Source of the DNA: Pseudomonas mendocina
GTDB taxonomy: Bacteria > Pseudomonadota > Gammaproteobacteria > Pseudomonadales > Pseudomonadaceae
NCBI GenBank assembly: GCA_037482215.1
Contig: CP148074.1
Span: forward strand, 4,340,001-4,404,000
Length of the DNA stretch: 64,000 nt
Reading direction: 5' to 3'
The notes beneath the pieces are model-generated. The model was not told the DNA's origin. It saw only the letters and a list, made by a program, of their open reading frames with translations, and searched no databases. A program made the position numbers and the translations under genes. Shown one piece after another: positions 20,732-37,866 of this stretch. Each line of letters opens with the position of its first letter. Position 1 is the first letter of the stretch.

Positions 20732-22060
20732 TTAAGCAGGCAGCGTCAAGGTAAATACGGCTCCGCCACCTTCGGCATTCATCACCTCAAGTGATCCTCC
20801 GTGCCACTCTGCAAGCGTACGGGCGATGGGCAGACCGAGGCCTATACCTGCCACGCTCAGGTTGTTTTCAGAGCGGTAAAAACGCTCGAAAATCAGCGAC
20901 TTTTCTTGCTCAGACACACCCGGCCCATAGTCGCGTACAGCACACTTAAAATGTCCGCCTTGGCGCACCAGGGAAATTTCAATTGGGTATCCTGGCGGGC
21001 TGTATTTGTGTGCGTTTGAAACAAGATTACAGATGATTTCGATACACCACGTCTTGTCGCAATTCACTGTAAAGTCTGTGTTTTTCCCGTCCTGATGACG
21101 GCGAATCTCACGATCATGCAGTAAATCGCCAAAGCGCTCCAAAGACGACTCGACCAACTCAAGCCAGTTGCAAGGCTGTAGATCCAAACGCCTCTCACCG
21201 TCACTGCCGTTCACCCCTTCATCCAGACGCAAACCTTCAAGCACCCGACCAATCAGGTAGTTGAGGTGGTTGACTGAGTTCCGGATCAGTTGCGAGCGCT
21301 CCTTCACGCTGGCCTCGTGAAGCGTTGCGTCGGTGAGCTGGCGCTTGAGCCGCTGGGCTGTTGAATCAATCACGGCAAGCGGGGTACGAAGTTGATGAGA
21401 CATCAGCGAAACAAAGTCCCGGTAACGCATGCGTACCGAGCGCTCCTGCTGAAGCACCTCAAGCAAACGCTGGGTTTGTAAGTGCTGAAGTTGCAGGGCT
21501 TCCTTGGCCTGCGTGGCCATTCGCAGATTGCGCAACATTTGCCAACATAGCAGCGATCCTGCAACTAGCAGTCCAACGACCGTCAAGATCACTTGAAGTA
21601 CTAATCGGCGGTGATCCTCACGGCGCCGGCCTGCATCTTCGCGCTCAGCAAGCATGACAGTATTGCCAACCTGACGCAGCGTTCTGGTGACAAGCTCGTA
21701 GTTGATGGGCAGGTGATCCAAACTGAAAATGACATCGCGGATGCGAGCGTCCACACCACTGCGCTGCATGTAGCGCAGTTGAGGCCCCTGATTCAGGATC
21801 ATCAAGCTGGATTTGAGTAAATCAAGATGAAGCGCGAGGTCCGACTTGGAGTCCGCAGTAGGCGGTGACACCTGTGCAGCGCGCTCCAGTTGAACACTCT
21901 GGTACACACTCTGGCTGATTGCCCAGACCATATTCTCGCCAATGTCAGCGCTTATCTCAGATTGCAGATTAAGCAGCTTGTATAGGGCATAGCCCAGCAT
22001 CAGCGCAAATATCAGGATCGCCGCGAATGCCAGGCTTCGTACTTGCCGTTGTCGCTTCAT
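20732..22060 (-). CDS. membrane sensor histidine kinase
   Basis: This 442-residue hybrid-free kinase has two transmembrane helices (about 9-30 and 170-195) around a periplasmic sensor of about 140 residues with no recognisable family. The HisKA domain holds the phospho-acceptor histidine in FVSLMSHQLRTPLAVIDSTA. HATPase_c shows the N box (CNLVSNAHKYSPPGYP), G1 (VRDYGPGVSEQEKSLIFERF) and G2 (GIGLGLPIARTLAEW). The start at 22060 overlaps the regulator stop (ATGA), so kinase and regulator are translationally coupled. It is transcribed away from the Tad operon together with the regulator and a molybdopterin-fold protein, and probably senses a periplasmic or membrane cue for them. Confidence 0.88.
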   Translation of the reverse strand: MKRQRQVRSLAFAAILIFALMLGYALYKLLNLQSEISADIGENMVWAISQSVYQSVQLERAAQVSPPTADSKSDLALHLDLLKSSLMILNQGPQLRYMQRSGVDARIRDVIFSLDHLPINYELVTRTLRQVGNTVMLAEREDAGRRREDHRRLVLQVILTVVGLLVAGSLLCWQMLRNLRMATQAKEALQLQHLQTQRLLEVLQQERSVRMRYRDFVSLMSHQLRTPLAVIDSTAQRLKRQLTDATLHEASVKERSQLIRNSVNHLNYLIGRVLEGLRLDEGVNGSDGERRLDLQPCNWLELVESSLERFGDLLHDREIRRHQDGKNTDFTVNCDKTWCIEIICNLVSNAHKYSPPGYPIEISLVRQGGHFKCAVRDYGPGVSEQEKSLIFERFYRSENNLSVAGIGLGLPIARTLAEWHGGSLEVMNAEGGGAVFTLTLPA

Positions 22061-23112
22061 CTGCTGCGAGTACGTAGCTCGGAAACCGCAGCAGGCAAAC
22101 TGGGAATCGCCCACCCCGTGGAAAGAATCAGCGCCACCAACTCCGACTGACGTGTCACGCAGGTTTTTGAAAAAATATTGCGTAAGTGGAACGCCACAGT
22201 CGTCGAAGAAACTCCCAGCTCGTGGGAAACATCTTCAGTACGCATGCCTTGAGCCATCAACAAGGCAACATTGGCCTCGGTGGGGGTCAAACCAAACACT
22301 TCGCGCAATGTCCCCACATCCGGCAAGGTGCGGCTGTAAGTCGAAGACAGAAACACAGCTAACAAGCAGGTGGAGTCACCTTTTGCGTATCCATCATCCA
22401 GACACACAACGCTCGCGGCTACAGCTGCATCGCCACTGTGACGCTCCATCGCAAGCGATTTGCGCTCTCCAGCGGTTTTAAGATCAGCCAGTGCCTTAGC
22501 GATTTTCTCGGCGCTGCTTGCCTTAAAGGCCGGCCAGCAAAGCGCTCCACCGGCATTTACCTGCCAAAGGTTTTCTTCCGCAGAGATGTGCTTGGCTTTG
22601 GGTGTTGCATAGAACAAATGGCCACGCTGGTCACACAACAGCACAGCACCCGGTAGCTGATCAAATACGCCGCTGAGTCGTGACAAAATATCCTGCTGGC
22701 CCCGCTGCGCGTGGCTTCTGAAGCGAGCAACTTGCGCCAGCCGCGACTCGATGGTGGCCAGCAACATGTCGTAGTCCACTGGCTTGACCAAGTAATCATC
22801 AACGCCTTGGCGCTTGGCTTCAAGCAAAGCGTCACGCTGGCCGAGTGCAGTCAGAAACAGAAAAGGCGTTTCAGCTAAATCGGGCCGTTGAGTGCGTAGG
22901 TACTGATGGATGAAGTAGCCATCACGCTGGGCATCGCCCCCCAGCATAACGTCACTTAAAATCAGATCCGGTCGCGTGAACTCAAGGTGCGCAAGCGCCT
23001 CGTCCACTGAGCGAGCCGCCAACACTTGATAGTTGGCGCTCTCCAGCTCCTCACAAAGATCGCGCAACAAAGTCGCCTCATCCTCGATGCATAAAATACA
23101 CGCACGCATCAC
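22057..23112 (-). CDS. response regulator, REC and LuxR-type HTH with a PAS-like middle
   Basis: This 351-residue regulator has a REC domain at residues 1-125, with acidic pair in CILCIEDEATLLRDL, phospho-acceptor aspartate in LILSDVMLGG and lysine in GVDDYLVKPVDYDML. A central region of about 130 residues (starting LSGVFDQLPGAVLLCDQRGH) resembles a PAS fold. The C-terminal 65 residues form a LuxR/GerE HTH (FGLTPTEANVALLMAQGM, then ELGVSSTTVAFHLRNIF). REC-PAS-LuxR is an uncommon order. It lies between a periplasmic protein and its kinase in one operon divergent from the Tad operon, so the Tad promoter is a natural target. That is inference from position only. Confidence 0.87.
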   Translation of the reverse strand: MMRACILCIEDEATLLRDLCEELESANYQVLAARSVDEALAHLEFTRPDLILSDVMLGGDAQRDGYFIHQYLRTQRPDLAETPFLFLTALGQRDALLEAKRQGVDDYLVKPVDYDMLLATIESRLAQVARFRSHAQRGQQDILSRLSGVFDQLPGAVLLCDQRGHLFYATPKAKHISAEENLWQVNAGGALCWPAFKASSAEKIAKALADLKTAGERKSLAMERHSGDAAVAASVVCLDDGYAKGDSTCLLAVFLSSTYSRTLPDVGTLREVFGLTPTEANVALLMAQGMRTEDVSHELGVSSTTVAFHLRNIFSKTCVTRQSELVALILSTGWAIPSLPAAVSELRTRSR

Positions 23113-24423: not shown

Positions 24424-24681
24424 ATGTCACTCAAATCACGCGCCCGCCAGCTTGGTCAGGGCATGACCGAATACATCATCATCGTGGCGTTGATCGCCAT
24501 TTCCGCCATCGTTGTATACAACCTGTTCGGCAGTACCGTTCGTGAACAGGTGGGAGATATGGCTGCTGAGCTGGGTGGTGGTCAGGCTGACCAGTCCGCA
24601 CGGCAAACAGGTGACGAGGCCAAAGCAGCAGGTACCACGTCTCATAACCTCGGCCAGTTCCAGCAAGAAGAACGTCAGTAA
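24424..24681 (+). CDS. Flp-type pilin / pilin-like protein
   Basis: This 85-residue protein has a class III (type IVb) prepilin leader. A short basic N-terminus (MSLKSRARQLGQ) is followed by G-MTEYIIIVALIAISAIVV, with the cleavage glycine, the conserved E5-equivalent glutamate and the Y of Flp pilins, then a hydrophobic helix. The C-terminal half is hydrophilic, rich in Q, A and G, and without cysteines. The start at 24424 has AGGGGA upstream. It is the first gene of the Tad operon and probably encodes the major subunit, although it is longer than typical Flp pilins (50-70 residues). A prepilin peptidase is needed for maturation and is not encoded nearby. Confidence 0.82.
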   Translation: MSLKSRARQLGQGMTEYIIIVALIAISAIVVYNLFGSTVREQVGDMAAELGGGQADQSARQTGDEAKAAGTTSHNLGQFQQEERQ

Positions 24682-24684
24682 GCC

Positions 24685-26730
24685 ATGCGCGGCGTCATGA
24701 ACCGGAAGCTCCAACAAGGGCAGGCCATGGTATTTGGCCTGCTTTTTGTTGGCATCACGCTGATCGCCCTGATTGTCATGTTCAATCAGGGCATTCTCAC
24801 GCGTGACCGTGTGCAGTTGGAAAACGCTGCTGACGCCGCCGTTTACTCACAGGCAAAACTTTTTGCCCGTCACCAGAACCTGATCGCTTACACCAACCGC
24901 GCCATCATCGCTAACGAGCTATCGGTTGGGCAGGTGGTTGCGCTGATGTCGTGGTCCAAGCGCTACGCCAATATTGCAGGCTGGGTTAACTCCTTCCCGG
25001 CTTACCAGATTCCAGTCGCGCCTCCGGCCCCCAAGCCGATGATCAGCGACATCTTGTCGGTTGTGACCTTGCCGTATCAGATCATCGGTATGGGTGTTCA
25101 GGCCGCTGCGACACCTGTGGTGTCGATCTATCCACGGGTGGTCTCCAGCTTCAACATGATCATGGGCTTCTTCCAGAAAGCCTTCTCGATTGCGACCTTC
25201 GAGGCACAAATATCGGTGCCCCAGGAGGTGGTCAAACAGCACAGAATGACCCACAGGTCAGACGACAACCTAGAGGTTGCGACCATGTCGCAACTGTTCC
25301 TGATCCAGAACTTCATCCTGACCTATTTCGCTGATTACCTGTCGCTTGCGGATCTGATCAATGCTGCGACCGGCGCCAATAATGAACCGGCAGCCCCCAC
25401 GCCGGGAACACCACCAGGTCCATCCTCAACGGGCATGGAAATAGAAGAAAGTAACCCGACACCTGGCAGTATCGTTTCGGACTTTCTGGGTGGTTCACCG
25501 GCGTCCATGCTGGTCAGCAACTCCCCGGAAATGCATAACCGAACGCCGAATAGCTTGAGCAGTATTGATGCTCGAAACTCTGCCCGGTATTTCGCAGCGT
25601 TGCTCAACGGCAGCCGTAACGATTGGCTGAGCAAGCGAAATTTCAACGCGACGGTGGGCTTTGGGATTCCGGAAATCCCAATCTACTTAGGTTTTATCAA
25701 TATCAAGCTGGGCTTCAGTTTCGAAGTGGGGGTATTCAACAACGGCGGCACCGCCTTTGTGTACAACCCGCTGAGTATCGCCAACGCCAGTAAGGGCATC
25801 CCCGTCTACGGCTGGTCCTCTCTGGATTACAGCTCCATGGGAGCAGAATTCAACATTTCACTGGCGGTTGAGTTGTGCATGCCTTTTGTGGGCTGCGTGT
25901 CGATTTTTGACGGCGAATTTGGATTAGGTTTTGGCTTGCCACTGGGAGCCGGTACGCATCAGCTGGTCACCAACCAGGGCGACCAAAAGTTGTTCCCCTC
26001 ACAGTGGGGAACACCTGCCGATGCCATGCTGTACAAAAAGAATGTCCCCTACGGTGACGCGATGCGACCGGTACACGCCACGACGTGGGGCTGGGCGCAT
26101 ATGCCCATTGTGCCGACCTCGCACGGGCATATGCCTTCTGACGTAACCATCGGCTACAGCGGTTCACCTTCGTTTTTCAGCTTGGGTTCAGACCATGCCG
26201 AAACCGGTGTGAGCAAGGAGTTCACGGTTGCCGTCTCCAAGCCGCTGGAGAGCATTCGCACCAGCGATAATCCAGACAGCCTGAATCTTCGTCAGGGTCG
26301 CTTTGCTCTGGAGACCAACGGTGTGGATGACAACCCGCTGGTATTTCTGTGGGGCGATGGCGAACGGATGATGACTGTCTCCTCAGCCGAGACCTTCTTT
26401 GCGCCACCGTCAGGACGGGACGAATCTGCCAACCAGTACAGCCCGTTCTGGGATGCACGCCTGCGCGAGCCAAGCCGGTTTATCGAGTTTATTGCCTCGG
26501 GCAAGATCGATATTCAAGAGCTCCTGGGCATGCTGAGTATCACGCCCTCCTATGTCGCAGGTTTCTTGATCGACTTGGCTTTTGACAACGTGGTCAAACC
26601 GGGGCGCGACGTCATGCTCGACAAGATTCCGGCACCGCTGAATACCTTTGCCAGAGGCCCCATCGAGGAAATTACCGACAAGGTTCTGGACGAAGCCAAA
26701 GACGGCATTATCGGAGCGATTCCGCAATGA
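24685..26730 (+). CDS. TadG-like pilus-assembly protein
   Basis: This 681-residue protein has an N-terminal TadE/TadG-type segment. A basic start is followed by QGQAMVFGLLFVGITLIALI, then the conserved LENAADAAVYSQAKLFARHQ of Tad_N proteins. The bulk is a large extracytoplasmic domain without a recognised family. It is G/P-rich in the middle (about 230-260) and has hydrophobic stretches near 115-165. Members are thought to be minor pilins or tethers of the Tad apparatus. It begins 3 bases after the pilin stop, and its own stop overlaps the next gene (ATGA). An alternative ATG lies 12 bases downstream. Nothing indicates an enzymatic role. Confidence 0.8.
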   Translation: MRGVMNRKLQQGQAMVFGLLFVGITLIALIVMFNQGILTRDRVQLENAADAAVYSQAKLFARHQNLIAYTNRAIIANELSVGQVVALMSWSKRYANIAGWVNSFPAYQIPVAPPAPKPMISDILSVVTLPYQIIGMGVQAAATPVVSIYPRVVSSFNMIMGFFQKAFSIATFEAQISVPQEVVKQHRMTHRSDDNLEVATMSQLFLIQNFILTYFADYLSLADLINAATGANNEPAAPTPGTPPGPSSTGMEIEESNPTPGSIVSDFLGGSPASMLVSNSPEMHNRTPNSLSSIDARNSARYFAALLNGSRNDWLSKRNFNATVGFGIPEIPIYLGFINIKLGFSFEVGVFNNGGTAFVYNPLSIANASKGIPVYGWSSLDYSSMGAEFNISLAVELCMPFVGCVSIFDGEFGLGFGLPLGAGTHQLVTNQGDQKLFPSQWGTPADAMLYKKNVPYGDAMRPVHATTWGWAHMPIVPTSHGHMPSDVTIGYSGSPSFFSLGSDHAETGVSKEFTVAVSKPLESIRTSDNPDSLNLRQGRFALETNGVDDNPLVFLWGDGERMMTVSSAETFFAPPSGRDESANQYSPFWDARLREPSRFIEFIASGKIDIQELLGMLSITPSYVAGFLIDLAFDNVVKPGRDVMLDKIPAPLNTFARGPIEEITDKVLDEAKDGIIGAIPQ

Positions 26731-27677
26731 TCCGTCGGCCTGAATGCCACCGCCAGAACGGCCAGGCCATGACCGAGTTTGTAGTCATGACCGCCGGTTT
26801 TCTGTTGATCCTATTTGTACTGGTCCCAGTGGTCGCCAAGCTCTCTGACATGTCGTACAAGGCGCAAGAAGCCGCACGTTATACCGCTTGGGAGCGTACT
26901 GTCTGGTACCAGACTAACGGCGTTGAAGGCGAGACCATGCCAAGCCAGATGAACCTGGAGGATGGTTATCTGGCCACGCGTAACGACGAAGACATCCTCA
27001 ACACAGCTGAGCGCCGCATCCTCAGTTTCAGTCGTGATCCCCAGCCGTTTGATGCGCAGGACATCGACCCGCAAACCGCTACGCGGGCCAACAACTTTTG
27101 GCGCTGGACCCACGGTGAAGGCGGCCAGCCTATGACCGGGCCTGGCGATATGGCCGAGTCCTCCGCCATTGCCAATCAGGCAACGCCGTCAACCGCGTAC
27201 AGCATCGTGGATGGCTATAACACGGTGATGGGTGTGGTGGCCGATGTGCTGAACGTCATCAGCTTCGGCCAGGGTGATCAGGACTTTATGCAGATCGCCC
27301 ACCCAACCCGCAACTTCTACACCACCTCAGTCAACATTCCGGTGCCGATTGCAGGTGGCAGTCAGTTGGGCAACCAGCCTCTATTTGGCGACCGCTTTAA
27401 CGAGCTCAATGTCGGCGCCCGTTCAGCGGTTCTGGCCGACGGCTGGGTCGCCCAAACCGAGGACGGTGAAGGCAGCCATTTCGATGAGAAGGTGGACGAT
27501 TTCGTACTGGGTACGCTGATCGACGAGAACCCGATCTTCGAGACCGTGCAATCAATCATCGGCATCTTCGAGCCCTCGTTTAAGACACTGGATCTGGCAC
27601 CGGTTGATACCGCTCCGATCAACGACAGCAAACCTCGATGCAATGTCACCACCGGCTTCTGCTACTTCGATGAATAG
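26727..27677 (+). CDS. TadE-like minor pilin protein
   Basis: This 316-residue protein has a pilin-like N-terminus: MIRRPECHRQNGQ, then AMTEFVVMTAGFLLILFVLV, with the glutamate after the putative cleavage site. It is followed by SYKAQEAARYTAWERTVWY, a motif common to TadE/TadF-type proteins. The remaining 250 residues are a soluble domain of unknown fold, ending with two cysteines (SKPRCNVTTGFCYFDE) likely to form a disulfide. It overlaps the previous gene by 4 bases and the next by 8, so translation is coupled. It probably forms a minor subunit or tip protein. Confidence 0.75.
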   Translation: MIRRPECHRQNGQAMTEFVVMTAGFLLILFVLVPVVAKLSDMSYKAQEAARYTAWERTVWYQTNGVEGETMPSQMNLEDGYLATRNDEDILNTAERRILSFSRDPQPFDAQDIDPQTATRANNFWRWTHGEGGQPMTGPGDMAESSAIANQATPSTAYSIVDGYNTVMGVVADVLNVISFGQGDQDFMQIAHPTRNFYTTSVNIPVPIAGGSQLGNQPLFGDRFNELNVGARSAVLADGWVAQTEDGEGSHFDEKVDDFVLGTLIDENPIFETVQSIIGIFEPSFKTLDLAPVDTAPINDSKPRCNVTTGFCYFDE

Positions 27678-28341
27678 GTTTATGCGCACATATTGGCCTT
27701 TGATGGCTCTGAGCATCTGCCTGCACGCTCAGGCCGACTGTGATTTTGACGATTTCCCGCGCATGGATGACATGCTCGTCAGCAGTATTGGCGACAGCAT
27801 TCAGTGGAATCACACGCCACTCAACGCACGGGCTTTCCGCGTTCCAAGCACAGTCAGTGGGGTGAAGGGCTTCTACGCGGGCGAGTGGGCTGACGCCGTC
27901 GACTTCACCGAGTTCGATGGCTGGGACCAGATCCTGCACATCAACGAAGACTGCATGATGATGGTTCAGGTCAAAGCTCAAAATGAGCGTTTCAGCTATG
28001 GCCGCATGACCATCACCAATCCACCTGAAAACGGTGGCGCGACCCTGGAATTGGGCAGCGGCATGCCAGTGCAGCCAGATGCTCAAGTCGTCAGCGACAT
28101 GCGCAGTGACGACAAGATTCGCAAAGGCCGCATGGTGCTCATCCTCAGCCACGACACCATGCATGCGACCCGTGCCTGGTACGAAACCGAGTTGCTGCAT
28201 CAAGGCTGGAAACTGGAGCACCGCAGTGTGCAGGACAACGCCACTGTACTGAGCTTTGCAAAAGGCCGTGAGCTGATGACAGTGGGCCTGCTGCGCCATG
28301 CGGAAAAAACCCAAGTGCTACTCAACAGGATGGATCGCTGA
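27670..28341 (+). CDS. periplasmic protein of unknown function in the Tad operon
   Basis: This 223-residue protein has signal peptide MNRFMRTYWPLMALSICLHA followed by QADCDFDDFPRMDD. No named family is recognised. The C-terminal 60 residues (ATRAWYETELLHQGWKLEHR, then NATVLSFAKGRELMTVGLLR) look like a small alpha/beta domain found in many periplasmic hypotheticals, where a helix with W or Y precedes GWxL. The ATG at 27670 overlaps the upstream gene. A second start at 27682 is possible. The stop TGA overlaps the next ATG (TGATG). It is clearly an operon member, probably an accessory of the outer-envelope part. Confidence 0.7.
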   Translation: MNRFMRTYWPLMALSICLHAQADCDFDDFPRMDDMLVSSIGDSIQWNHTPLNARAFRVPSTVSGVKGFYAGEWADAVDFTEFDGWDQILHINEDCMMMVQVKAQNERFSYGRMTITNPPENGGATLELGSGMPVQPDAQVVSDMRSDDKIRKGRMVLILSHDTMHATRAWYETELLHQGWKLEHRSVQDNATVLSFAKGRELMTVGLLRHAEKTQVLLNRMDR

Positions 28342-29339
28342 TGAGAAAGCAACTGGGCCAATCCATGACTGAATATCTGGTAGTGCTGGGCGTTACCGGC
28401 GCTGCCCTGCTGGCTGCAACCACAGATGTCACTGAGCTGTTTGACAATGTTCAGGACAGTTATCACACCCAGTCCAGTGAGATGAACAAAGTTCAACTCT
28501 ATGGAAACCCCAAGTTCCAAACCAGCACAGCCATCCGCGATGAAGGGGATGGCGATGATGGTGATCGCTCACCAGAAACCCCTGTGGACATTCCGCCACC
28601 AGACTATCCCCCCGTTATTACGACCGTGTTTGACGCCTCAGGCCAAGCCGTGGGCAAACTGGATCGCAATAACCGCCTGATTGACGAGAACGGCAAAGAA
28701 ATCGCTTGGTGCCGTCCAATCACGACTCCAGGGCCGAATTACGGTCAGTGCGAGTTCGTCGATACAGAAACCGGTGAAGTCATTGACGGCTACAGCACCG
28801 GCTCGGAGTGGGCGGATGATGATGGCAACCCTCTTCAGCTTCTCGCGCTGAGTCGTGGAAATGCCGTTGTAGGTTTTGCCTACCTCTACAACGACAACTA
28901 TTACGACGCAGTGTCTCGCAAGCGGCTCGACCCGCAGCCAACCAACCTCACGGCAGTACAAACCCGCCCTGTGATCAGCCTGGATGGAAACGGCAAGCCT
29001 TTTATCTCCGGCCGTGAAGCAAACGGTTTTATCTACACCGAAAGCAGCGTTCAAACCGACACACAGGACTTTTCGAAGACTAAAACCATTGAGGGTGAAC
29101 TGGTCACAGTCATTTTTGAAAACTCTCAGTTACCCATATCCGAGCCTAAAAAATACAAACCGTGCGTCGTGACCGAAAACAACTGGAGCACCGGTATGAA
29201 CAGCTCATTACTGAACACGTTTGGCTTGGGTGACCAGTTATTCCTGCAGCCCAGTAGCTACGTCGATACGAGCAGTGCCGACTGCCGGACCAGCAAGACC
29301 GTTGTACTCAAGACGGATGGCAACTGGGAGTTGCGCTAA
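28341..29339 (+). CDS. large pilin-like protein with a CpaB-type repeat unit
   Basis: This 332-residue protein begins with a minimal pilin leader, MRKQLGQS-MTEYLVVLGVTGAALLAA, closely matching the small pilin of the operon. It goes on to a large soluble part. After an acidic linker (about 65-85, DEGDGDDGDRSPETP) comes VFDASGQAVGKLDRNNRLID, then ENGKEIAW. This is one to two units of the same short repeat that fills the extension of the downstream CpaB protein. Four further cysteines are scattered in the C-terminal half. It may be a minor pilin or adhesin that displays a folded domain. It is translationally coupled to the gene before it. Confidence 0.72.
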   Translation: MRKQLGQSMTEYLVVLGVTGAALLAATTDVTELFDNVQDSYHTQSSEMNKVQLYGNPKFQTSTAIRDEGDGDDGDRSPETPVDIPPPDYPPVITTVFDASGQAVGKLDRNNRLIDENGKEIAWCRPITTPGPNYGQCEFVDTETGEVIDGYSTGSEWADDDGNPLQLLALSRGNAVVGFAYLYNDNYYDAVSRKRLDPQPTNLTAVQTRPVISLDGNGKPFISGREANGFIYTESSVQTDTQDFSKTKTIEGELVTVIFENSQLPISEPKKYKPCVVTENNWSTGMNSSLLNTFGLGDQLFLQPSSYVDTSSADCRTSKTVVLKTDGNWELR

Positions 29340-29425: not shown

Positions 29426-31465
29426 ATGTCATCTGTTTCAGGAAAAAAACTGCTGATCATTGCCATCGCCTGTGGCGTGCTGGCAGCACTGCTGGGCTGG
29501 GCCTATCTGAAGGCCAAAGAATCTCAGTACAAAGCTGCCTACCGCCCGGCCAATCAGGTCAAGCTGTCGGTTATTGTCCCCAATAACAACATTGGCAAGT
29601 CACAGACCATCAAGCGCGAGCTCGTGGCTGCACTCGATGTACCGCGTGAATACCTGCCCTCCAACGCCGTCATGGCTGAAGACTGGCCGCGCTTAGAAGG
29701 CCGTATGACCCTCATGGAGCTGCAAAAAGGTCGCCCGATTACCTGGGATGCGGTAGAGCGTGACGGCGTAACTCGATTCTCGGAAAACGTCGAGCTGGGC
29801 AAGCGCGTTAAAACCGTCAAGGTCAGCAAGATCAACTCCTTCGATGGCATGCTGCGCCCCGGCGACCGTATCGACCTGCTTGGCACCTTTACCGCTGAAG
29901 AAGTCGGTCTACAAGCTCAGCCCAATTACGCTGACGATGTGGTCATGACTGTGCTCGAAGACGTCGCGGTACTGGCAGCAGGCCGCGAGGACGCCAACGG
30001 TCGCAAGTACGAGAACTTCTACGACCGCAGCACACCAGACGGCTTCAACATGAACTTCTCGACCTTGTCCCTGATGCTCACCCCCGCTCAGGTAGCACGT
30101 GTCGAGCTGGCAGAAAAGTCAGGCGAACTGGTTGCCGTACTGCGTCACCCGAAAGACACCAGCAACGCAAACCTTGGGCAGATCACAGTCTCCAACCTGC
30201 TTGACCCGCCACCGGTCGAAACCGTGGATGTTGTGCTGGATGCCGAAGGCAACCTGCTGGGCCGCATCGTCGGTGACAACATTATTGATGCCAACGGCAA
30301 GATCATCGGCAAGATCGTTGAAGGTCAGGCCATTGGTCTGGACGGAAAAGTCATGGGTCGTATTGTCCGCGGCCTGTCCCCAGATGATCCGCTGCTGCGC
30401 ATGCGTGAAAAAGCGACTGTGGTACGAGATGCACAAGGCAATGTGGTCGGTCGTATTGTCGATGGCAAAGTGGTCGATGCCGCGGGCAACCCGATTGGCA
30501 CCCTTGTGGATGGTAAAGCCGTTGGCTTAGATGGCAAGTCACTGGGCACAGTCGAGAAAAATGCTGCATTGGATGAACATGGCCGGGTGATCGACATGCG
30601 CACCTCGCAAGTGCAGCCATCCACCACCACAGACACCAACCGTGAACGTCAGGTTGTGCGCGACGCCAACGGCAACATCATCGGCTACCGCGTCGGCGAT
30701 GAAATCCATGATGAAAATGGCAATTTGATCGGTCATTTCCGCGACGGCAAAGCCTACGGCCTAGACGGGAAATTGTTGGGTGAAGTCAGCACCGTGCTGA
30801 TGGATGCCAACAACAAAGTCGTCGGTGAAATGGGCGAAGTGGTCCGTGACAAAGACGGCAAAATCATCGGCACTGTCAAAGACGGCAAGCTGGTCGATGC
30901 CAGCGGTAGAGTCTTGGGTTCAGTGAAGGACGGCCAAGTAGTGGACAGCAGCGGCAAGGTCTTGGGCAAAGTCGAGCAAACCATGCTCGACAAAGACGGC
31001 CGCCCGGTAGCCGACAACACCCGCGTGGTGCGTGACGCACAAGGCAATGTGATCGGCACTGTATCCGGCAACGACATCATCGATGCACAGGGCCGCAAGG
31101 TCGGCACCGTTAAGGATGGCCAGGTTCAAGATATGTCCGGCAACGCGATTCAGGGTGCTGAAGTTGGCGTTGAGCAAGACATGGTTCAAGTGGTTCGCGA
31201 CGCCAGCGGCACCATCATCGGCGTACTGCGTGGCGACTCGGTGTACGGCATGGACGGCAAGCTGATCGGCACACTGGTAGACGGCAAAATCGTAGATGCC
31301 AACGGCAACGTGCTGTATCGCGGCGTGACCATCGGCCTGGAAGCCCCGAAAGCCACTGACACAACACCCGCCAAACGCACCGAAGCCGCCCGGATGATCC
31401 AATTCATACCCGGCGGTACCGGCAAAGAAGGGGTTCTTCCGGTCAAGACCCTGCGTCAGGAATAA
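29426..31465 (+). CDS. CpaB/RcpC-like Tad assembly protein with a long repeat extension
   Basis: This is a 679-residue protein, while typical CpaB/RcpC proteins have 250-350 residues. Residues 1-35 hold a membrane anchor (KKLLIIAIACGVLAALLGWA). An SAF domain lies at about 45-120 (VKLSVIVPNNNIGKSQTIKR ... MELQKGRPITWDAV), followed by the RcpC core to about 260 (VKTVKVSKINSFDGMLRPGD, ELVAVLRHPKDTS). From about 267 to 632 the chain is some 20 repeats such as DAQGNVVGRIVDGKVVDAAG and DGKLLGEV. The tail to 679 is disordered in appearance. CpaB proteins stabilise the secretin in the periplasm. The start at 29426 follows GGGGAGAAAC. The gene is separated by 86 bases from the pilin-like gene and by 67 from the secretin. 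Confidence 0.85.
   Translation: MSSVSGKKLLIIAIACGVLAALLGWAYLKAKESQYKAAYRPANQVKLSVIVPNNNIGKSQTIKRELVAALDVPREYLPSNAVMAEDWPRLEGRMTLMELQKGRPITWDAVERDGVTRFSENVELGKRVKTVKVSKINSFDGMLRPGDRIDLLGTFTAEEVGLQAQPNYADDVVMTVLEDVAVLAAGREDANGRKYENFYDRSTPDGFNMNFSTLSLMLTPAQVARVELAEKSGELVAVLRHPKDTSNANLGQITVSNLLDPPPVETVDVVLDAEGNLLGRIVGDNIIDANGKIIGKIVEGQAIGLDGKVMGRIVRGLSPDDPLLRMREKATVVRDAQGNVVGRIVDGKVVDAAGNPIGTLVDGKAVGLDGKSLGTVEKNAALDEHGRVIDMRTSQVQPSTTTDTNRERQVVRDANGNIIGYRVGDEIHDENGNLIGHFRDGKAYGLDGKLLGEVSTVLMDANNKVVGEMGEVVRDKDGKIIGTVKDGKLVDASGRVLGSVKDGQVVDSSGKVLGKVEQTMLDKDGRPVADNTRVVRDAQGNVIGTVSGNDIIDAQGRKVGTVKDGQVQDMSGNAIQGAEVGVEQDMVQVVRDASGTIIGVLRGDSVYGMDGKLIGTLVDGKIVDANGNVLYRGVTIGLEAPKATDTTPAKRTEAARMIQFIPGGTGKEGVLPVKTLRQE
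30226..31323 (+). repeat. tandem short beta-repeat array within the CpaB-like protein
   Basis: About 20 degenerate units of 13-18 residues follow the pattern [VI]xDxxGxx[IVL]G-x-[IVL]-x-D-G-[KQ]. Examples are VVRDAQGNVIGTVSGND, IIDANGKIIGKIVEGQ, VVDSSGKVLGKV and VGLDGKSLGTV. Units often fall in triplets that open with VVRDAxGN and close with GLDGKxLG. The pattern recalls DUF3659-type repeats. The DNA copies are diverged, so the array is old, not recently expanded. Confidence 0.85.
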
Positions 31466-31532: not shown

Positions 31533-33020
31533 ATGAATATTCAAAAAGCTTTGGGGTTCTTCTGCGCCACGGCCTGGGGAGTAAGCGCCCAGGCCTATGA
31601 CATCCCACCCTCCATCGTCCTGTATGACGGCGACGTCAGTGTGCTTGAAGCACCAGGCGTTGAGCGTGTGGCGGTCGGTAATGTGGAGATCATCAGCGCC
31701 ACCATGCTGAAGAACGAGGAAGTCGTGGTCACCGCCCAAAAAGACGGCGAAACCACTGTGCATTTCTGGTTCGATGACGGCACCCGCCACAAAATGAGCG
31801 TGGTCGTCGCCAAAGCCAATGGCTACCGCCAGCAGGCAGAATTGAAAGCCATGCTGGCCAACATTCCGGGTCTGAAAATCCGCACCGTTGGCCGTCAGGT
31901 TGTGCTTGAGGGCCGCCTGAGCCCTGAATACCTGAACCGGGTAAAAGAAGCCGCCAAGTTCTATGACAACGTGCTGGTTCTGGCCGAGGAACAAGGCGGC
32001 GCAGCGACCAAGGTCGACTCGGCTGAAATCCTCACCGAAGTTCAGGCCATGCTTGGCCAAATTCCAGGCATCAAGATCAAGCCGGTAGGCCGCCAGATTG
32101 TTATCGATGGCGATCTGCACGAGATCGACATGGCTCGTATCGACCTGCTCAAAGAACGTTACCCGGATGTTTTGGTACTGGCTCAGGAGATGTCCGAATT
32201 CCTTGCGCCAATGATCTACTTCGATGTGCGTATCACTGAGTTCGCCAAAGACGATGTAGAGGAATTGGGCGTTAACTGGAGCACCAACATCAACGGCCCT
32301 ACGTTTGCCTTTAATGCGGATGGTGGCACCAACAACCTGTATCGCGGCCAATTTACTGGAGACACCTTCAAAGGTCTCAATGCACAAGTCGGTGATGTGG
32401 GATCGCACGCTTACTGGGGTATCGCCAGCGAGCTGACTTCTCGTATCAACCTGCTGGAGAAAAACGGCTCAGCCCTGACCCTTGCCTCCCCGCGCCTGAG
32501 CGCACGCAGCGGCGGTAAAGCCGAACTGACCGTGGGCGGCCAGGTACCGGTGGTCACCAGCAGCATCAATGGCCCTTCCGTTGAATATAAAGACTACGGG
32601 GTCATGCTCAATATTGCCCCGCAACTGTACGGCAGCGAAATGGTGTCCACCCACGTCATGGCTGAAATCAGCCAGGTGGACAAGGCGAACCAAGTACAGG
32701 GCTATCCGGCCTTTAAAACCCGTCGCACGGAGAACGAAGTCCAGCTGAAAGTCGGTGAAACACTGGTGCTTTCAGGTCTGGTTTCCGAAGACGCTCAAGC
32801 CACTGTTGAAGGTATCGCCTTCCTCAAAGACCTGCCTCTGATTGGCGGCCTGTTCCGCAATAAGAGCGCTCAGGGCAAGCGTACCGAGCTGGTTATTTTC
32901 ATCACCCCACGCCTGATGACTAACGGCCCAGGTTCTGTGACGGAAGAAGCTCAGAAACAACAGGACGAGATGATCAAGAAGTATCAGAAATCCTTCGGCA
33001 ACATCGAACTGATCGACTGA
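31533..33020 (+). CDS. Tad-type secretin (RcpA/CpaC family)
   Basis: This 495-residue outer-membrane secretin has signal peptide MNIQKALGFFCATAWGVSAQ. The N-terminal pilus-formation domain follows (about 25-100, VLEAPGVERVAVGNVEIISA), then two BON-like modules with the repeated IPGLKIRTVGRQVVLEGRL and IPGIKIKPVGRQIVIDGDL (about 105-215). The C-terminal secretin domain (about 240-475) has LASPRLSARSGGKAELTVGG, then VPVVTSSINGPSVEYKDYGV and TELVIFITPRLM. It forms the channel for the pilus or secreted substrate. It sits between the CpaB-like gene and the ATPase, as in other Tad loci. Confidence 0.92.
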   Translation: MNIQKALGFFCATAWGVSAQAYDIPPSIVLYDGDVSVLEAPGVERVAVGNVEIISATMLKNEEVVVTAQKDGETTVHFWFDDGTRHKMSVVVAKANGYRQQAELKAMLANIPGLKIRTVGRQVVLEGRLSPEYLNRVKEAAKFYDNVLVLAEEQGGAATKVDSAEILTEVQAMLGQIPGIKIKPVGRQIVIDGDLHEIDMARIDLLKERYPDVLVLAQEMSEFLAPMIYFDVRITEFAKDDVEELGVNWSTNINGPTFAFNADGGTNNLYRGQFTGDTFKGLNAQVGDVGSHAYWGIASELTSRINLLEKNGSALTLASPRLSARSGGKAELTVGGQVPVVTSSINGPSVEYKDYGVMLNIAPQLYGSEMVSTHVMAEISQVDKANQVQGYPAFKTRRTENEVQLKVGETLVLSGLVSEDAQATVEGIAFLKDLPLIGGLFRNKSAQGKRTELVIFITPRLMTNGPGSVTEEAQKQQDEMIKKYQKSFGNIELID

Positions 33021-33027
33021 GGCGTCC

Positions 33028-34674
33028 ATGTTTGAGATAGAAGTCACTTACAAGGATGGCCAGCCAGTCGACAAACTGAGCTGCGCCAGCGCCTCCTGCG
33101 AACTGGGCAAAGCACGTACCGGACTGGTCAGGCTGCGCGGCTGGAAAGTCGCGCCTGTCCATGCGCGCATTGAGCAATGCCTAGCGGGCCTGTTTGTTGA
33201 AGATGTCAGCCGCGGCTATGAGGTCAGGGTCAACGGCCAGGTCGTCAACCGGCATGGTCCGCTGGCACCGACCGATGTGATTGCTATCGGCGGCTACCAT
33301 ATCCGCGTCAATTCGCTGGAGCAGAAGGTCTGCGAAGAAAAAGTCCCGGAGGCTCACGAGCACGAAACGCTGGAGCTTGAGCCAGAAGACGAACTGCCTT
33401 ACATGGAGTGGTCACAGTTCATCCACACCGAACTGTTCCGCGCCCTCGATTTACGCCGGATGAATTTGGATGATCTGGGCCCGGATGAAGTCCGTGAGAC
33501 CCTGTCTGAACTTATCGACGGCATCATCGAACAAATTGCAGCACGACTGCCCGCAAACATAAGCACCGATGTACTTCGCAAAATCGTACTGGATGAAGCC
33601 GTCGGCCTCGGTCCATTGGAAGACCTGCTGGCAGACAAAACCGTCAGCGAAATCATGGTAAACGCGCACAACGACATCTACGTTGAGCGCGCCGGCCGCC
33701 TGGAACGGACACCGATCAACTTCAGCTCCAACGCAGCGGTTCTGTCCACCATCGAGCGGATCATCTCGCCGCTAGGCCGTCGTATCGACGAAAGCTCACC
33801 CATGGTCGACGCACGTCTTAAAGACGGCTCCCGGGTTAACGCCATCATCCCACCGTTGGCCCTGCGCGGTCCGTGCCTGACCATCCGTAAGTTCTCCGAG
33901 AAGAAGCTCACCACCGACGATCTGATCAAGTTCGGCTCGATCAACGAACCGATGGTGGAGTTCTTGCGTACAGCGGTAGAGCAGCGCATGAACATCGTGG
34001 TATCCGGTGGTACCGGCTCAGGTAAAACCACGCTGCTAAACATCCTTTCCAACTTCATCCCGATGGAAGAACGGGTAGTGACGGTGGAAGACGCCGCCGA
34101 ACTAAAACTGGTGCAGCCTCACGTGGTAGCACTGGAAGCTCGCCCGGCTAACATGGAAGGTAAGGGGCAGGTCACCATCCGTGACCTGGTTCGAAACTGT
34201 CTGCGGATGCGTCCTGATCGTATCGTGGTCGGTGAGTGCCGGGGCGGTGAAGCACTGGACATGTTGCAGGCCATGAACACTGGCCACGACGGCTCACTCA
34301 CCACCGGCCACGCCAACTCACCACGGGACATGCTGCGCCGCCTGGAAGTGATGGTGCTGATGGCAGGCATGGACTTACCGGTACAAGCGATCCGCGAACA
34401 AATCGCCTCAGCCGTGCAAATCATCGTCCAGCAAACCCGTTTCGGTGACGGTTCCCGTCGCATCACCAGCATCACCGAAATCACCGGCATGGAGCAGAGC
34501 ACCATTCAGCTCAACGAAATCTTTACCTTCCAACAACAAGGTTTCGATGAGAACGGACGGGTTAAAGGCTATTACCAGGCCACCGGGCTAATTCCGGAGT
34601 TCTATGAAGAACTCCGCGAGCGCGGGATTGGGGTGAACATGGACATCTTCCGCACGGTACCGCGCCATGTCTGA
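33028..34674 (+). CDS. tadA: TadA/CpaF secretion ATPase with N-terminal FHA domain
   Basis: This 548-residue traffic ATPase powers pilus assembly. Residues 1-97 have an FHA-like fold ([62 protein letters not shown]), a phosphothreonine-recognition module. A linker and the CpaF N-terminal helical domain follow (about 130-230), then the RecA-like core. Walker A is GGTGSGKTT (near 328), the Asp/Walker B box is [20 protein letters not shown], and the His box is [18 protein letters not shown]. Standard TadA/CpaF proteins lack FHA. The domain suggests control by Thr phosphorylation or a phospho-partner. The stop overlaps the TadB start by 8 bases. Confidence 0.92.
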
Positions 34675-35524
34675 GATGCTGCTTTATTTGTGTGCGTTGT
34701 TGCTGGCAGTGGCAGGCTTCGCCGCGGCCATGTTGTTGACGGACAAGGTCAGCGATCAGCTGGCCTTTTACCGCAGCCAGTTCTCCCGCAGTACCGAACT
34801 GGATATGGCGGATATGTTCATCTTCGCCAGCGGCAAACAGTTCTTCATCGCCAATGCCATGCTCATGGTATTGATTCCCCTGTTCCTGCACGTGGTGTTC
34901 GGCATCCTCGTCGTCACCATTGCCGGTGCGGTGCTGATGCTGTTCGTGCCAAAGCTCATCATCAACCAGATGCGCAAAACCCGCCTGAAGAAGTTCGAAG
35001 AACAACTGCCCGACGCCTTCATGCTGCTCTCCAGCAGCCTGCAATCAGGTGCCAGCCTGAACATGGCGCTGGAGAATGTGGTGCAGCAATCCCCTGCCCC
35101 GCTTAATCAGGAGTTCGGCCTGCTGGTCAAAAACATCCGCCTCGGTATCACCCTGGAAGATGCCCTGCTCAAGTTGGAAAAACGTCTACCTCTGCCCTCC
35201 TTCATCATGGCCAGTTCAGCGATTCGCATCAGCCGTGAAGTGGGGGGCAACTTGGTAGAAACCATCAACTCCATGGCCGCTATGCTGCGCCGCAAGCGAG
35301 TGATGGAAGGCAAGATCGACAGTCTGACCGCTCAAGGTAAAGCTCAGGGTACGTTCATGGCGATGCTGCCGATTTTCCTCGCCGGCATTCTCAGCGTGAT
35401 TGAGCCGGAAGCCATGAGCCAGCTGTACACCACACGCAACGGCCTGATCGTGTTGACCGTCATGGTCATCATGGAAGTTCTGGGCTTCTTGTTCATTCGT
35501 AAAATCACCACGATCGACGCCTAA
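34667..35524 (+). CDS. tadB: TadB inner-membrane platform protein
   Basis: This 285-residue type II/IV secretion F-domain protein has an N-terminal hydrophobic helix (MLLYLCALLLAVAGFAAAML) and a pair of membrane segments near 60-105. The T2SSF domain includes FEEQLPDAFMLLSSSLQSGA, SLNMALENVVQQSPAPLNQE and a SREVGGNLVETINSMAAMLR stretch. C-terminal membrane helices lie near 232-280. It forms the platform with TadC that couples the ATPase to pilin extrusion. It overlaps the ATPase gene by 8 bases, and TadC begins 2 bases after its stop. Confidence 0.92.
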   Translation: MSEMLLYLCALLLAVAGFAAAMLLTDKVSDQLAFYRSQFSRSTELDMADMFIFASGKQFFIANAMLMVLIPLFLHVVFGILVVTIAGAVLMLFVPKLIINQMRKTRLKKFEEQLPDAFMLLSSSLQSGASLNMALENVVQQSPAPLNQEFGLLVKNIRLGITLEDALLKLEKRLPLPSFIMASSAIRISREVGGNLVETINSMAAMLRRKRVMEGKIDSLTAQGKAQGTFMAMLPIFLAGILSVIEPEAMSQLYTTRNGLIVLTVMVIMEVLGFLFIRKITTIDA

Positions 35525-35526
35525 TC

Positions 35527-36405
35527 ATGAACGAGATCCTTGTCCTGCTCAGCAGCGCCAGCCTCGGCGTTACCGTCACCTGTACGCTGCTGCTGATCAT
35601 TTCTCTGCTGTCGCTACTGCCAGACGAAAACCGCGCCTACATGGACCCGGTGCCCGGCTGGATTCGTCCGATCTGGCCGCTGGTACGTTTGGTCAGTCAT
35701 CACTTTTGCAGCAACATGCCACCGCGAGTGATGGATAAGCTCGACGTCAAACTGCAAAAAACCGGTGCCCTTTATGTACTCACAGCCGAAGAGTTTCTGG
35801 CCCTGTGCATAACCATGGCCATCCTGTTTCCGCTGATTTCTATCCTGCCGATGGCCAGTGGTAAAAGCGGCATTATCTGGCCCGTGGTGTTGGTGATGAT
35901 GCTTTTAGGTGCAGCCCTGCCGTGGATGTGGATAACCGACATGCACAAGCGCCGCGACCGCGACATTATCCGCAACCTGCCGGTGTTCCTCGAATACCTG
36001 ACCATGTGCGTGGATGCTGGTCTGAACTTTCTTGGAGCCCTGCAACAGGCCGTGGACAAAGGCCCGGATGGCGCCATGAAAAATGAATTCCGTATTGTCC
36101 TGCGTGATATCCGCTCCGGCCTGCCCCGCGCAGAAGCCCTCAACCGCATGGATGAGCGGGTCAATCTGAAAGACCTGTCCACCTTTGTTCGCTCAGTCAT
36201 CCAGGCTGAAAAAATGGGTAGCAGTCTGCGTAATACCTTGCAGATTCAAGCCCAACAGCGGCTTGAAGAACGCTTCCAGCGTGCTGAAAAAACCGCCATG
36301 CAAGCACCCGTAAAATTGATCATTCCACTGATCACCTTCATCTTCCCGCTGACCTTCGTGATCCTACTGTTCCCGATCGTGGTCAAATTCCTCGGGGAAG
36401 CCTGA
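35527..36405 (+). CDS. tadC: TadC inner-membrane platform protein
   Basis: This 292-residue second F-domain protein has an N-terminal helix (ASLGVTVTCTLLLIISLLSL) and central membrane helices near 80-140. The cytosolic T2SSF domain carries IIRNLPVFLEYLTMCVDAGL, NFLGALQQAVDKGPDGAMKN and FVRSVIQAEKMGSSLRNTLQ. The C-terminal helix ends in LTFVILLFPIVVKFLGEA. These are standard TadC features. Its TGA overlaps the ATG of the DUF192 gene (TGATG). Confidence 0.92.
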   Translation: MNEILVLLSSASLGVTVTCTLLLIISLLSLLPDENRAYMDPVPGWIRPIWPLVRLVSHHFCSNMPPRVMDKLDVKLQKTGALYVLTAEEFLALCITMAILFPLISILPMASGKSGIIWPVVLVMMLLGAALPWMWITDMHKRRDRDIIRNLPVFLEYLTMCVDAGLNFLGALQQAVDKGPDGAMKNEFRIVLRDIRSGLPRAEALNRMDERVNLKDLSTFVRSVIQAEKMGSSLRNTLQIQAQQRLEERFQRAEKTAMQAPVKLIIPLITFIFPLTFVILLFPIVVKFLGEA

Positions 36406-36749
36406 TGGCGCACAAGCTCTACCGCCCTGATGGCACATACGTTCCCCTTGAGCTAACCCTGGCTGATAGCCTCCTATCACGCCTTAAGGGACTGCTCGGG
36501 CGTGCAGGCCTAAATCCAGCCGAAGGCATTTGGATCAGTCCATGTAACTCGGTGCACTGCTTCTTTATGCGCTTCGCCATCGACGTGGTTTACCTGGACA
36601 GCAACCATCAGATTGTAGCGATCCGACCAAACCTGGCCCCATGGCGTATTAGCCTGTGCTGGAAAGCCAAAAGTGTTATCGAACTGGCCGCTGGTGAATG
36701 CCAGCGCCTAGGTATTACCCCCGGAGATAAGATCAAATGCGCCTCCTGA
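36405..36749 (+). CDS. DUF192 protein in the Tad operon
   Basis: This 114-residue protein consists of one DUF192 domain: SRLKGLLGRAGLNPAEGIWI, NSVHCFFMRFAIDVVYLDSN, then ELAAGECQRLGITPGDKIKC. There is no signal peptide, so unlike many DUF192 proteins it seems cytosolic. The function of the family is unknown. It is coupled to tadC at its start and overlaps the next gene by 13 bases. This implies a fixed role in the apparatus and not chance insertion. Confidence 0.85.
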   Translation: MAHKLYRPDGTYVPLELTLADSLLSRLKGLLGRAGLNPAEGIWISPCNSVHCFFMRFAIDVVYLDSNHQIVAIRPNLAPWRISLCWKAKSVIELAAGECQRLGITPGDKIKCAS

Positions 36750-37171
36750 GCACCGTCATGCTCGCACTGCTGATCAGCGGTTGCGCAAACCTGCAGCCGA
36801 AAAATCAGATTATCGACCTGCAGCGCCAGGCTGATAACGCCTACTCACAGGGCGATTTCGCCACCTCAACCAAGCTTTACGGCCAGCTTGCGAAGAAAAT
36901 GCCCACCGATGCAGGTGTGCGCTACCAGCTTGGTAACAGCCAGGCTCGCCAGGGCGATAACCAAGCCGCCATCGCCAGCTACCGCGATGCGCTTGTACGC
37001 GACCCACAGCACGCCCGCAGTTGGCATAACCTGCTGCAAGTACAACTTCGCGAAGCGAGTGTCACGGCCTCAGAAATGCGCCGCTACCTGAACGATCAGA
37101 CACCGTATGCCGACAAGGCGCTACAGCGCGCCGATAAATTGCTCGAAGTCTTTCCGCAGGCGGAGGAGTAA
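36737..37171 (+). CDS. TadD-like TPR lipoprotein
   Basis: This 144-residue protein has signal peptide MRLLSTVMLALLISGC with the lipobox cysteine at 16. Tetratricopeptide repeats follow (about 30-105, AYSQGDFATSTKLYGQLAKK, VRYQLGNSQARQGDNQAAIA, ALVRDPQHARSWHNLLQVQL). TadD-type TPR lipoproteins act as pilotins or scaffolds for the secretin. It is shorter than typical TadD (about 250 residues). The ATG lies inside the end of the DUF192 gene, and TadE follows 5 bases after the stop. Confidence 0.85.
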   Translation: MRLLSTVMLALLISGCANLQPKNQIIDLQRQADNAYSQGDFATSTKLYGQLAKKMPTDAGVRYQLGNSQARQGDNQAAIASYRDALVRDPQHARSWHNLLQVQLREASVTASEMRRYLNDQTPYADKALQRADKLLEVFPQAEE

Positions 37172-37176
37172 CCCCA

Positions 37177-37866
37177 ATGAGGCGTCGTCAATCAGCCCAG
37201 GCGATGATCGAGTTTCTGATCATCATCCCCGTTCTGATCATGCTGATCTTCGGCGCTGCACAAGTGGCGTTTATTTATTCTGCAAAGAATGGCTTGAACT
37301 ACGCCACGTTTCAGGCCGCTCGTATTGGTGCAATGAACCATGCCCTGTACAGCGATATGCGCCGCGGCTTAATTCGAGGCATGTACCCAATGTTCTCGCA
37401 GATCGACGACGAGAAAGAGCGCATGACACACACAGCCACCGAAGTGGACAACTTTGTGATGATCACGCGTATCAGCCCGAACAGCGAAGCCTTCGCACAG
37501 TTTGGGGAGGAGGTCGAAGCACTGGGCGCAAGCGCTATTCCCAATGACAACCTGATGTTCCGTTCACCTGCACAGGGGCCGGTCTCTATCCAGGATGCCA
37601 ACCTGCTGAAGATCCGCGTGCAGTACTGCATGCGCCTGATCGTACCCATGGCGGAAAGGCTGTTCAGCTCGGCCTCTGCCTTCAATACCAGCAAAACCAG
37701 AACTGGCCTGAACGAAAACGCCCGCCTCAATCCAGACTATGAAGAGGTCTGTGGTGGACGTAACGGTTTCATTATCACCTCTGAAGCCACCGTGCGCATG
37801 CAGAGTGCTGCGATCAACGACGAAACCTATTGCAGCACCACCCCAAGAAAGCTGAACTGCCCGTAA
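37177..37866 (+). CDS. TadE-like pseudopilin
   Basis: This 229-residue protein has a basic start (MRRRQSAQ) and the TadE-type pilin-like helix AMIEFLIIIPVLIMLIFGAA, followed by KNGLNYATFQAARIGAMNHA, the hallmark after the TadE helix. The rest is a soluble domain with two likely disulfide cysteine pairs (VQYCMRL, EEVCGG, ETYCSTTPRKLNC). It is the last gene of the operon, and an intrinsic terminator lies 55 bases after the stop. Confidence 0.85.
   Translation: MRRRQSAQAMIEFLIIIPVLIMLIFGAAQVAFIYSAKNGLNYATFQAARIGAMNHALYSDMRRGLIRGMYPMFSQIDDEKERMTHTATEVDNFVMITRISPNSEAFAQFGEEVEALGASAIPNDNLMFRSPAQGPVSIQDANLLKIRVQYCMRLIVPMAERLFSSASAFNTSKTRTGLNENARLNPDYEEVCGGRNGFIITSEATVRMQSAAINDETYCSTTPRKLNCP

Follow-up and report, generated by a model that had tools for sequence, protein, structure and literature searches.

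A Tad pilus locus of Pseudomonas mendocina encodes a 679-aa protein that by profile and fold is RcpC/CpaB, and in which a 374-residue array of short β-repeats stands between the ring domain and a conserved C-terminal tail. The anatomy of this protein (core, inserted array, and tail) is well supported, and we infer that the arrays of the assembled subunits form a collar around the pilus channel. The gene is located on the plus strand of the window, a 64,000-nucleotide stretch of contig CP148074.1 in which all coordinates are given, and GGGGAGAAAC precedes its ATG at 29426. The gene and protein comprise these features:

29426..31465, plus strand: cpaB/rcpC gene with the inserted array, a single open reading frame (ATG 29426, stop 31465, 679 aa)
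29441..29542, plus strand: N-terminal helix, residues 6-39, a helix in the predicted model
29546..29761, plus strand: D1 or SAF-like domain, residues 41-112
29777..30151, plus strand: D2 or RcpC ring domain, residues 118-242 (PF16976 at 118-240; 9GZR alignment)
30152..30223, plus strand: segment approximately at the site of the RcpC L3 linker, residues 243-266 (position after D2)
30224..30379, plus strand: β-flower block B1, residues 267-318 (Pfam, model, alignment)
30380..30415, plus strand: link between B1 and B2, residues 319-330, with a short helix at 322-325 (model, alignment)
30416..30613, plus strand: β-flower block B2, residues 331-396 (model, alignment)
30647..30835, plus strand: β-flower block B3, residues 408-470, mostly absent from some relatives (alignment)
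30836..31021, plus strand: β-flower block B4, residues 471-532 (Pfam, model, alignment)
31022..31183, plus strand: β-flower block B5, residues 533-586 (model, alignment)
31184..31345, plus strand: β-flower block B6, residues 587-640 (best PF21784 stretch 589-654; model, alignment)
31346..31387, plus strand: variable linker, residues 641-654 (alignment of 44 homologues)
31388..31462, plus strand: conserved tail, residues 655-679, a proposed secretin-facing β-hairpin (alignment; pLDDT below 50 in the model)

The CpaB model TIGR03177 matches the protein with 113.5 bits (cut-off 71), and the RcpC domain model PF16976 matches residues 118-240 with 59.5 bits (cut-off 28.8). The solved RcpC structure 9GZR is the top Foldseek match to the full-length predicted model (E 8.3e-10), and its D1-D2 fold is recovered, with residues 45-252 aligned by VIA-align to 9GZR residues 54-260; the rmsd (13.0 over 170) reflects the placing of the domains. 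These results uphold the CpaB/RcpC identity given in a first-pass annotation of the same DNA. The full-length model, built with 44 sequences, has a mean pLDDT of 74.7 and a pTM of 0.36, and pLDDT is below 50 in its last 37 residues. By analogy with RcpC as described in the available part of PMC12307814, the N-terminal helix is taken as an inner-membrane anchor. Alignment to RcpC and the construct description in the same source place the start of the array near the end of the RcpC linker.

The array occupies residues 267-640 (30224-31345) and consists of 21 hairpin units, with 16 residues as the commonest glycine-glycine spacing. The first-pass annotation had placed about 20 repeats at 30226..31323, which fits these coordinates, the array being about 22 bases longer. 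A unit profile finds 21 matches in the array and a mean of 1.37 (maximum 4) in 200 shuffles, a comparison that is circular, as the profile was built from the same units. The Pfam families Bflower (PF21784; E 1.7e-35, 122.4 bits, gathering threshold 25) and Bflower_2 (PF21785; E 6.4e-34, 116.6 bits, gathering threshold 38) each match six stretches of the array. The earlier likening of the repeats to DUF3659 is borne out by a match to that family (PF12396; E 6.5e-19, 68 bits, gathering threshold 24.8, five stretches), but the β-flower families score better. At the level of sequence, then, β-flower appears to be the best named family for the array and DUF3659 the second. A PRC-barrel model also exceeds its cut-off (29.4 against 21.2 bits), although its best stretch is merely 504-527.

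Structural predictions agree with a chain of small hairpins. Short β-strands run along the whole array in the full-length model, in which block pLDDT is mostly in the 70s and 80s, and repeated short strands are also found when the array is modelled alone (mean pLDDT 81.1, pTM 0.53, 16 sequences). The available part of PMC10584680 presents β-flowers as barrels of small size that have the motif [DNEQ]xxG at their tips, some of them being lipoproteins. Closed barrels of 4-, 5- or 6-fold symmetry characterize the family, and the blocks here may form such barrels. The window array shares with these proteins the [DNEQ]xxG tips on short β-hairpins, seen in its 21 units and in the short strands of both models, as well as profile matches over cut-off. 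It differs in that a component of a pilus machine contains several β-flower blocks in succession; neither CpaB nor a pilus is named in the available text of PMC10584680. Sequence searches at an E threshold of 0.001 revealed no solved structure related to the array, and fold searches gave no confident match. The weak fold rows include Rhs, fascin, and sialidases, together with adenovirus fibre and MORN-repeat proteins from the viral models; Tubby is absent among the fold-search rows listed. These negative results do not count against any family.

We read the array as six blocks (B1-B6) of three or four units each. A partly triplet arrangement had been suggested before; on this reading the blocks are not plain triplets. 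Some DNA copies within the array lie 186 nt (62 residues) apart, and the copies listed are 60-88% alike (the floor of the tool is about 60%), so an origin as fresh tandem copies or a tandem-slippage artefact is unsupported. In a genome-wide search, PF21784 has four matches at E 0.001 or better, all of them inside cpaB.

The cpaB gene is adjacent to the secretin gene in a Tad locus that comprises, in order, a Flp-like pilin, a TadG-like gene and three further accessory genes, CpaB, secretin, FHA-CpaF, TadB, TadC, a DUF192 protein, a TPR protein, and TadE. The genes besides cpaB are:

24424..24681, plus strand: Flp-type pilin, with a GQGMTEY motif read by eye and no Pfam match
24685..29339, plus strand: four minor-pilin or accessory genes (TadG-like 24685-26730; 26727-27677; 27604-28341; 28341-29339)
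31533..33020, plus strand: secretin CpaC/RcpA (PF00263, T2SS-T3SS_pil_N at 27-92, and a BON-like domain)
33028..34674, plus strand: motor ATPase CpaF/TadA with an N-terminal FHA domain at residues 26-88 (T2SSE 219.4 bits)
34667..35524, plus strand: TadB (T2SSF)
35527..36405, plus strand: TadC, assigned by position and conserved layout only
36405..36749, plus strand: DUF192 protein (Pfam)
36737..37171, plus strand: TPR protein (Pfam), TadD-like by position
37177..37866, plus strand: TadE (Pfam)

The T2SS-T3SS_pil_N domain of the secretin is presumably an N0-like domain, and the FHA domain of CpaF is just over its cut-off (21.1 against 20.7 bits). For the TadG-like protein, the Tad TadE/G-like model falls just below cut-off, and no Pfam family matches the products of 26727-27677, 27604-28341, or 28341-29339. 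All four accessory genes are conserved in position among the loci compared. The protein encoded at 28341-29339 contains a stretch, VFDASGQAVGKLDRNNRLIDENGKEIAW, that by eye resembles two β-flower units; among the loci fetched, matches to this protein above 80 bits occur in Pseudomonas or Pseudomonas-like loci only.

As set out in the available part of PMC12307814, RcpC of P. aeruginosa (9GZR) is a dodecamer whose periplasmic ring is a conduit across the periplasm, and its C-terminal β-hairpin, absent from the construct RcpC1-259, is modelled as completing the sheet of the secretin N-domain and is required for Tad-mediated aggregation. This protein and the window protein have in common a putative N-terminal anchor, D1, D2, a post-D2 linker, and a C-terminal element that probably faces the secretin. 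However, RcpC has 303 residues, with an array unmentioned in that part of PMC12307814, whereas the window protein has 374 β-repeat residues between D2 and tail. CpaB of Caulobacter crescentus belongs to an alignment subcomplex and has a C-terminal β-hairpin directed toward the outer-membrane part, as is proposed here, although the model packs that hairpin against CpaI, and neither "repeat" nor "flower" occurs as a word in the available text of PMC13170226.

Across 44 homologues, mean majority identity is 80% in the tail (655-679) and 33% in the linker that precedes it (641-654). With a conserved tail behind it, the array is an insertion, and the earlier statement that the chain is extended after its core does not hold. 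As this tail also comes after a variable linker, it is probably equivalent to the secretin-facing β-hairpin of RcpC, for which the motif evidence is weak. A tail profile made from array-bearing CpaBs was compared with 34 array-less CpaBs: two of them (L117, 5.6 bits; L082, 4.5 bits) score above the best of 680 shuffled controls (3.6 bits), and ten have no match at all. A tail-like motif ends the array-less proteins L116 and L117 after the core and is contained within L080 and L082; in L080 and L116 it is seen by eye, with low profile scores. This similarity to array-less CpaBs is suggestive only. A similar tail also ends deeper relatives that have other repeats.

The best explanation of these observations, to which we give somewhat less than an even chance, is that the β-flower arrays of the RcpC subunits form a collar above the alignment ring and around the pilus channel. 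Twelve subunits would assemble into a periplasmic ring, and the tail would be a β-hairpin facing the secretin N-domain, both as in P. aeruginosa RcpC. In this proposal the array stands in for the plain linker that joins ring to hook, so that a collar or sleeve made of all twelve arrays would lie above the D2 ring. Blocks B1-B2 might be its more constant base, packed against the ring or against one another, and B3-B6 a variable outer part that changes by whole blocks. Such a collar would enclose the space from ring to secretin, shield the peptidoglycan from the sticky filament, and stiffen the joint. If the ring is a dodecamer, a sleeve of twelve copies of about 21 hairpins would contain nearly 4,500 residues.

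Conservation along the array bears on this proposal. In the alignment of 44 homologues, mean majority identity is 0.76 in B1, 0.84 in the link, and 0.75 in B2, all with zero gaps; it is 0.64-0.71 in B3-B6, with 1-17% gaps and with B3 mostly absent from several relatives, and 0.82 in D2 and 0.67 in D1. In the two most distant of seven homologues compared individually (P0087 and P0099), identity to the window is 56-65% for B1 and B2, 54-56% for D2, 36-39% for D1, and 38-54% for B3-B6. In the other five, D2 (79-92%) equals or exceeds B1 and B2 (54-88%), and in P0056, B5 (67%) exceeds both B1 (58%) and B2 (65%). By sequence, B1-B2 is the more constant part, yet because of these cases it is not conserved like the ring throughout. 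A search with the distal array of homologue P0058, which admits proteins 0.55-1.75 times the query length only, revealed the RcpC domain in 116 of the 120 best-listed matches. The other four have 396-482 aa, the longest contigs being 1969-3160 bases, and are probably fragments.

The collar is favoured because of the RcpC identity, the predicted short β-strands, the conserved tail, the gap-free B1-B2, the presence of the RcpC domain in nearly all distal-array matches, the low dN/dS of the array reported below, and, from P. aeruginosa, the requirement for the RcpC hairpin and the role of the ring as a conduit. It is the reading that best accommodates the ring context, an insertion site immediately ahead of the proposed hook, and an array whose base is more constant and whose outer blocks vary. 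Against it are the low pTM of both models, the weak similarity of the tail to array-less CpaBs, above all shuffled controls in only two of 34, the five of seven homologues in which B1-B2 falls below D2, the high B5 in P0056, and the existence of array-less FHA-type Tad systems. Two points in the available part of PMC12307814 also count against it: RcpC lacking the hairpin continues to co-purify with the secretin N-domain, whereas the construct lacking linker L3 does not, and 21 of the roughly 24 nm are already covered by the modelled RcpA-RcpC, so that little axial room is left. The general form of this proposal, that in one Tad lineage the alignment ring bears a periplasmic β-flower sleeve of variable repeat number enclosing the pilus between ring and secretin, is put forward tentatively, as a possibility that may well prove wrong.

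The array-bearing cpaB gene is not rare. In the sample of the taxonomic family, CpaB exceeds the cut-off in 104 of 248 genomes, and eight of the 104, all in the genus group of the window, have long CpaB frames (636-866 aa), each with the array. The remaining CpaB frames over cut-off have about 265-414 aa (read for short arrays in part). The length is thus unusual for CpaB, as had been supposed, and the reservation that most Pseudomonas CpaBs might carry the array is not borne out in this sample. Three of the eight genomes (G095, G159, and G194) also contain a CpaB of ordinary length, and in the window genome a single CpaB exceeds the family cut-off. In the class sample, CpaB exceeds the cut-off in 39 of 274 genomes, and DxxG arrays occur in at least nine of these, including the window (G000, G255, G282, G366, G367, G433, G483, G487, and G492); 17 loci were first fetched, two of them below cut-off, and short-frame CpaBs were read in part. 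PF21784 matches ten of the 274 genomes, but lies inside CpaB in G000 and G282 only, so divergent arrays were judged by reading the sequence and not by Pfam. In the phylum sample, CpaB exceeds the cut-off in 165 of 398 genomes, the best-scoring ones listed having 393 aa or less, and a profile of the window CpaB matches through the array in three (G000, G095, and G102) and in the core alone in five more.

In 32 loci from named genomes, the array is in frame with the core in 27, is cut by a contig end in three (L055, L059, and L063), and is absent from two (L067 and L068). Because homologues share the core-array-tail layout, the array is not a separate gene misjoined to cpaB, a doubt raised with the first-pass annotation. 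Carriers include Pseudomonas dryadis, P. alcaligenes, P. guineae, and P. anguilliseptica and, beyond Pseudomonas, Gilvimarinus, Methylophaga, Cellvibrionales, Halieaceae, and Piscirickettsiaceae; Stutzerimonas nitrititolerans is among the homologues found. Where the source names these proteins, they are mostly labelled CpaB. We found no description of arrays in CpaB/RcpC among the open-licence PMC papers searched, in line with the first annotator's knowledge of none. One long frame (L069, in G505) was rejected as an array CpaB, being extended upstream and having no array, and L084 and L085 were left out for a weak match (27 bits).

On a CpaF tree of 67 loci, all 34 array loci fall within one set of 43 (support 100/99), and the array label changes twice on the tree, compared with a shuffled mean of 22.6. 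Because many loci were fetched with an array-bearing query, the proportions on this tree are not a census. The set includes nine array-less loci, two of them Polyangiaceae, so FHA-type Tad systems without the array exist as a branch of the lineage. Besides that of the window, seven of seven CpaFs sampled from the set (four array, three array-less) have the FHA domain, as do none of three sampled outside it. In deeper array-bearing members, repeats of another wording (VTVDADGKIVTRDG...) occupy this position ahead of a similar tail. DUF3659 is over cut-off in three of the divergent CpaBs scanned (L073, L074, and L075). Among eight other CpaBs scanned, L066, L070, and L072-L075 have no β-flower match at E 0.01, L081 has one match under cut-off, and L058 is over cut-off. 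Because differently worded repeats stand at the same site, position and β-repeat character seem to outweigh exact sequence in these arrays.

Such freedom of wording also agrees with the main rival to the collar, a rather unlikely one in our estimate, in which the arrays reach sideways as a binding scaffold or flexible tether and anchor the machine to peptidoglycan, a minor pilin, or another partner. Array length would then be free because only binding surfaces matter, and inserts do range from about 117 to 606 residues across 34 loci. However, the array has no Pfam match to a named cell-wall-binding family, and it is the constant blocks that adjoin the ring and the far ones that vary.

It is improbable that the array is a loose repeat expansion, a harmless bulky linker with little specific function. 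Variable repeat number and the array-less FHA-type branch would be expected of such a linker, and in seven of seven pairs the array has evolved more rapidly than the core (dN/dS 0.06-0.27 and 0.03-0.13, respectively; in the pair L046-L048 the array stretch extends into the tail). Nevertheless, an array dN/dS of this size is still low, B1-B2 is gap-free, the array is present in 34 of the 43 lineage members on the tree (most loci having been fetched with an array-bearing query), and the listed DNA copies are too divergent to be fresh. For the tail, dN/dS is 0-0.29 (29-35 codons, six pairs).

Equally doubtful is the ruler or spacer that the first-pass annotation had offered as one possible role, in which the array fixes the distance from the inner-membrane ring to the outer-membrane secretin. 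Its position between ring domain and proposed hook is suitable, but the wide range of insert lengths does not follow secretin length (Spearman rho 0.04, p 0.81, 34 loci, relatedness not corrected), and a simple ruler set by secretin length was rejected on this ground. In that comparison, the window is outside the set and the values for L071 and L073 are overstated, the core alignment having stopped inside D2. TadG length, tested likewise in 29 loci, shows no relation either (rho 0.21, p 0.27). One locus, L081 (2222-3409), encodes a 396-aa CpaB whose array is very short (the profile detects two units, and three are visible by eye). A linker rich in proline and glycine and a tail of the same kind follow, and the protein is possibly an intermediate form. 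That the array is a C-terminal extension whose tail is unrelated to the secretin is most improbable, for although 32 of the 34 array-less CpaBs fail to beat the shuffled tail controls, the tail is far better conserved than the linker, is kept in deeper relatives with other repeats, and resembles a motif present after the core in array-less L116, L117, L080, and L082.

Only recently was it resolved how the Tad pilus traverses the periplasm. The joint between ring and secretin can be elaborated, as is shown by a lineage in which the ring subunit is more than doubled at this site, and the natural series of insert lengths offers a means to test what sets the length of the insert. The β-flower fold, whose function is left open in the available part of its first description (PMC10584680), gains a fixed machine context in which piliation, aggregation, and biofilm can serve as readouts. 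If the sleeve is true, this fold would have a defined place in a nanomachine, and Tad machines would have an adjustable conduit.

The Tad-like Kil system of Myxococcus xanthus has an ATPase, KilF, with an N-terminal FHA domain, and its secretin KilC is said to lack N0 (PMC8460266, in the part available). The window CpaF is likewise FHA-fused, though just over cut-off, and the two Polyangiaceae loci adjoin the window lineage on the CpaF tree, with array-less CpaBs (frames of 251 and 282 aa). However, the T2SS-T3SS_pil_N domain at 27-92 suggests that the window secretin is not of the N0-less type, and the system is not filed as Kil.

Other genes of the region were also noted. The DUF192 gene recurs in many members of the FHA-type lineage, array-less ones included. 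Upstream of the Tad locus, the minus strand encodes a filamentous-haemagglutinin-like protein of 4137 aa that has a TPS secretion domain (798-13208), together with its ShlB/FhaC-type transporter (13250-14998). A Mla-type lipid transport operon (MlaE, ATPase, MlaD, and an auxiliary lipoprotein) is found near the locus at 16793-20237, and is followed by a histidine kinase and response regulator pair on the minus strand (20735-23112).
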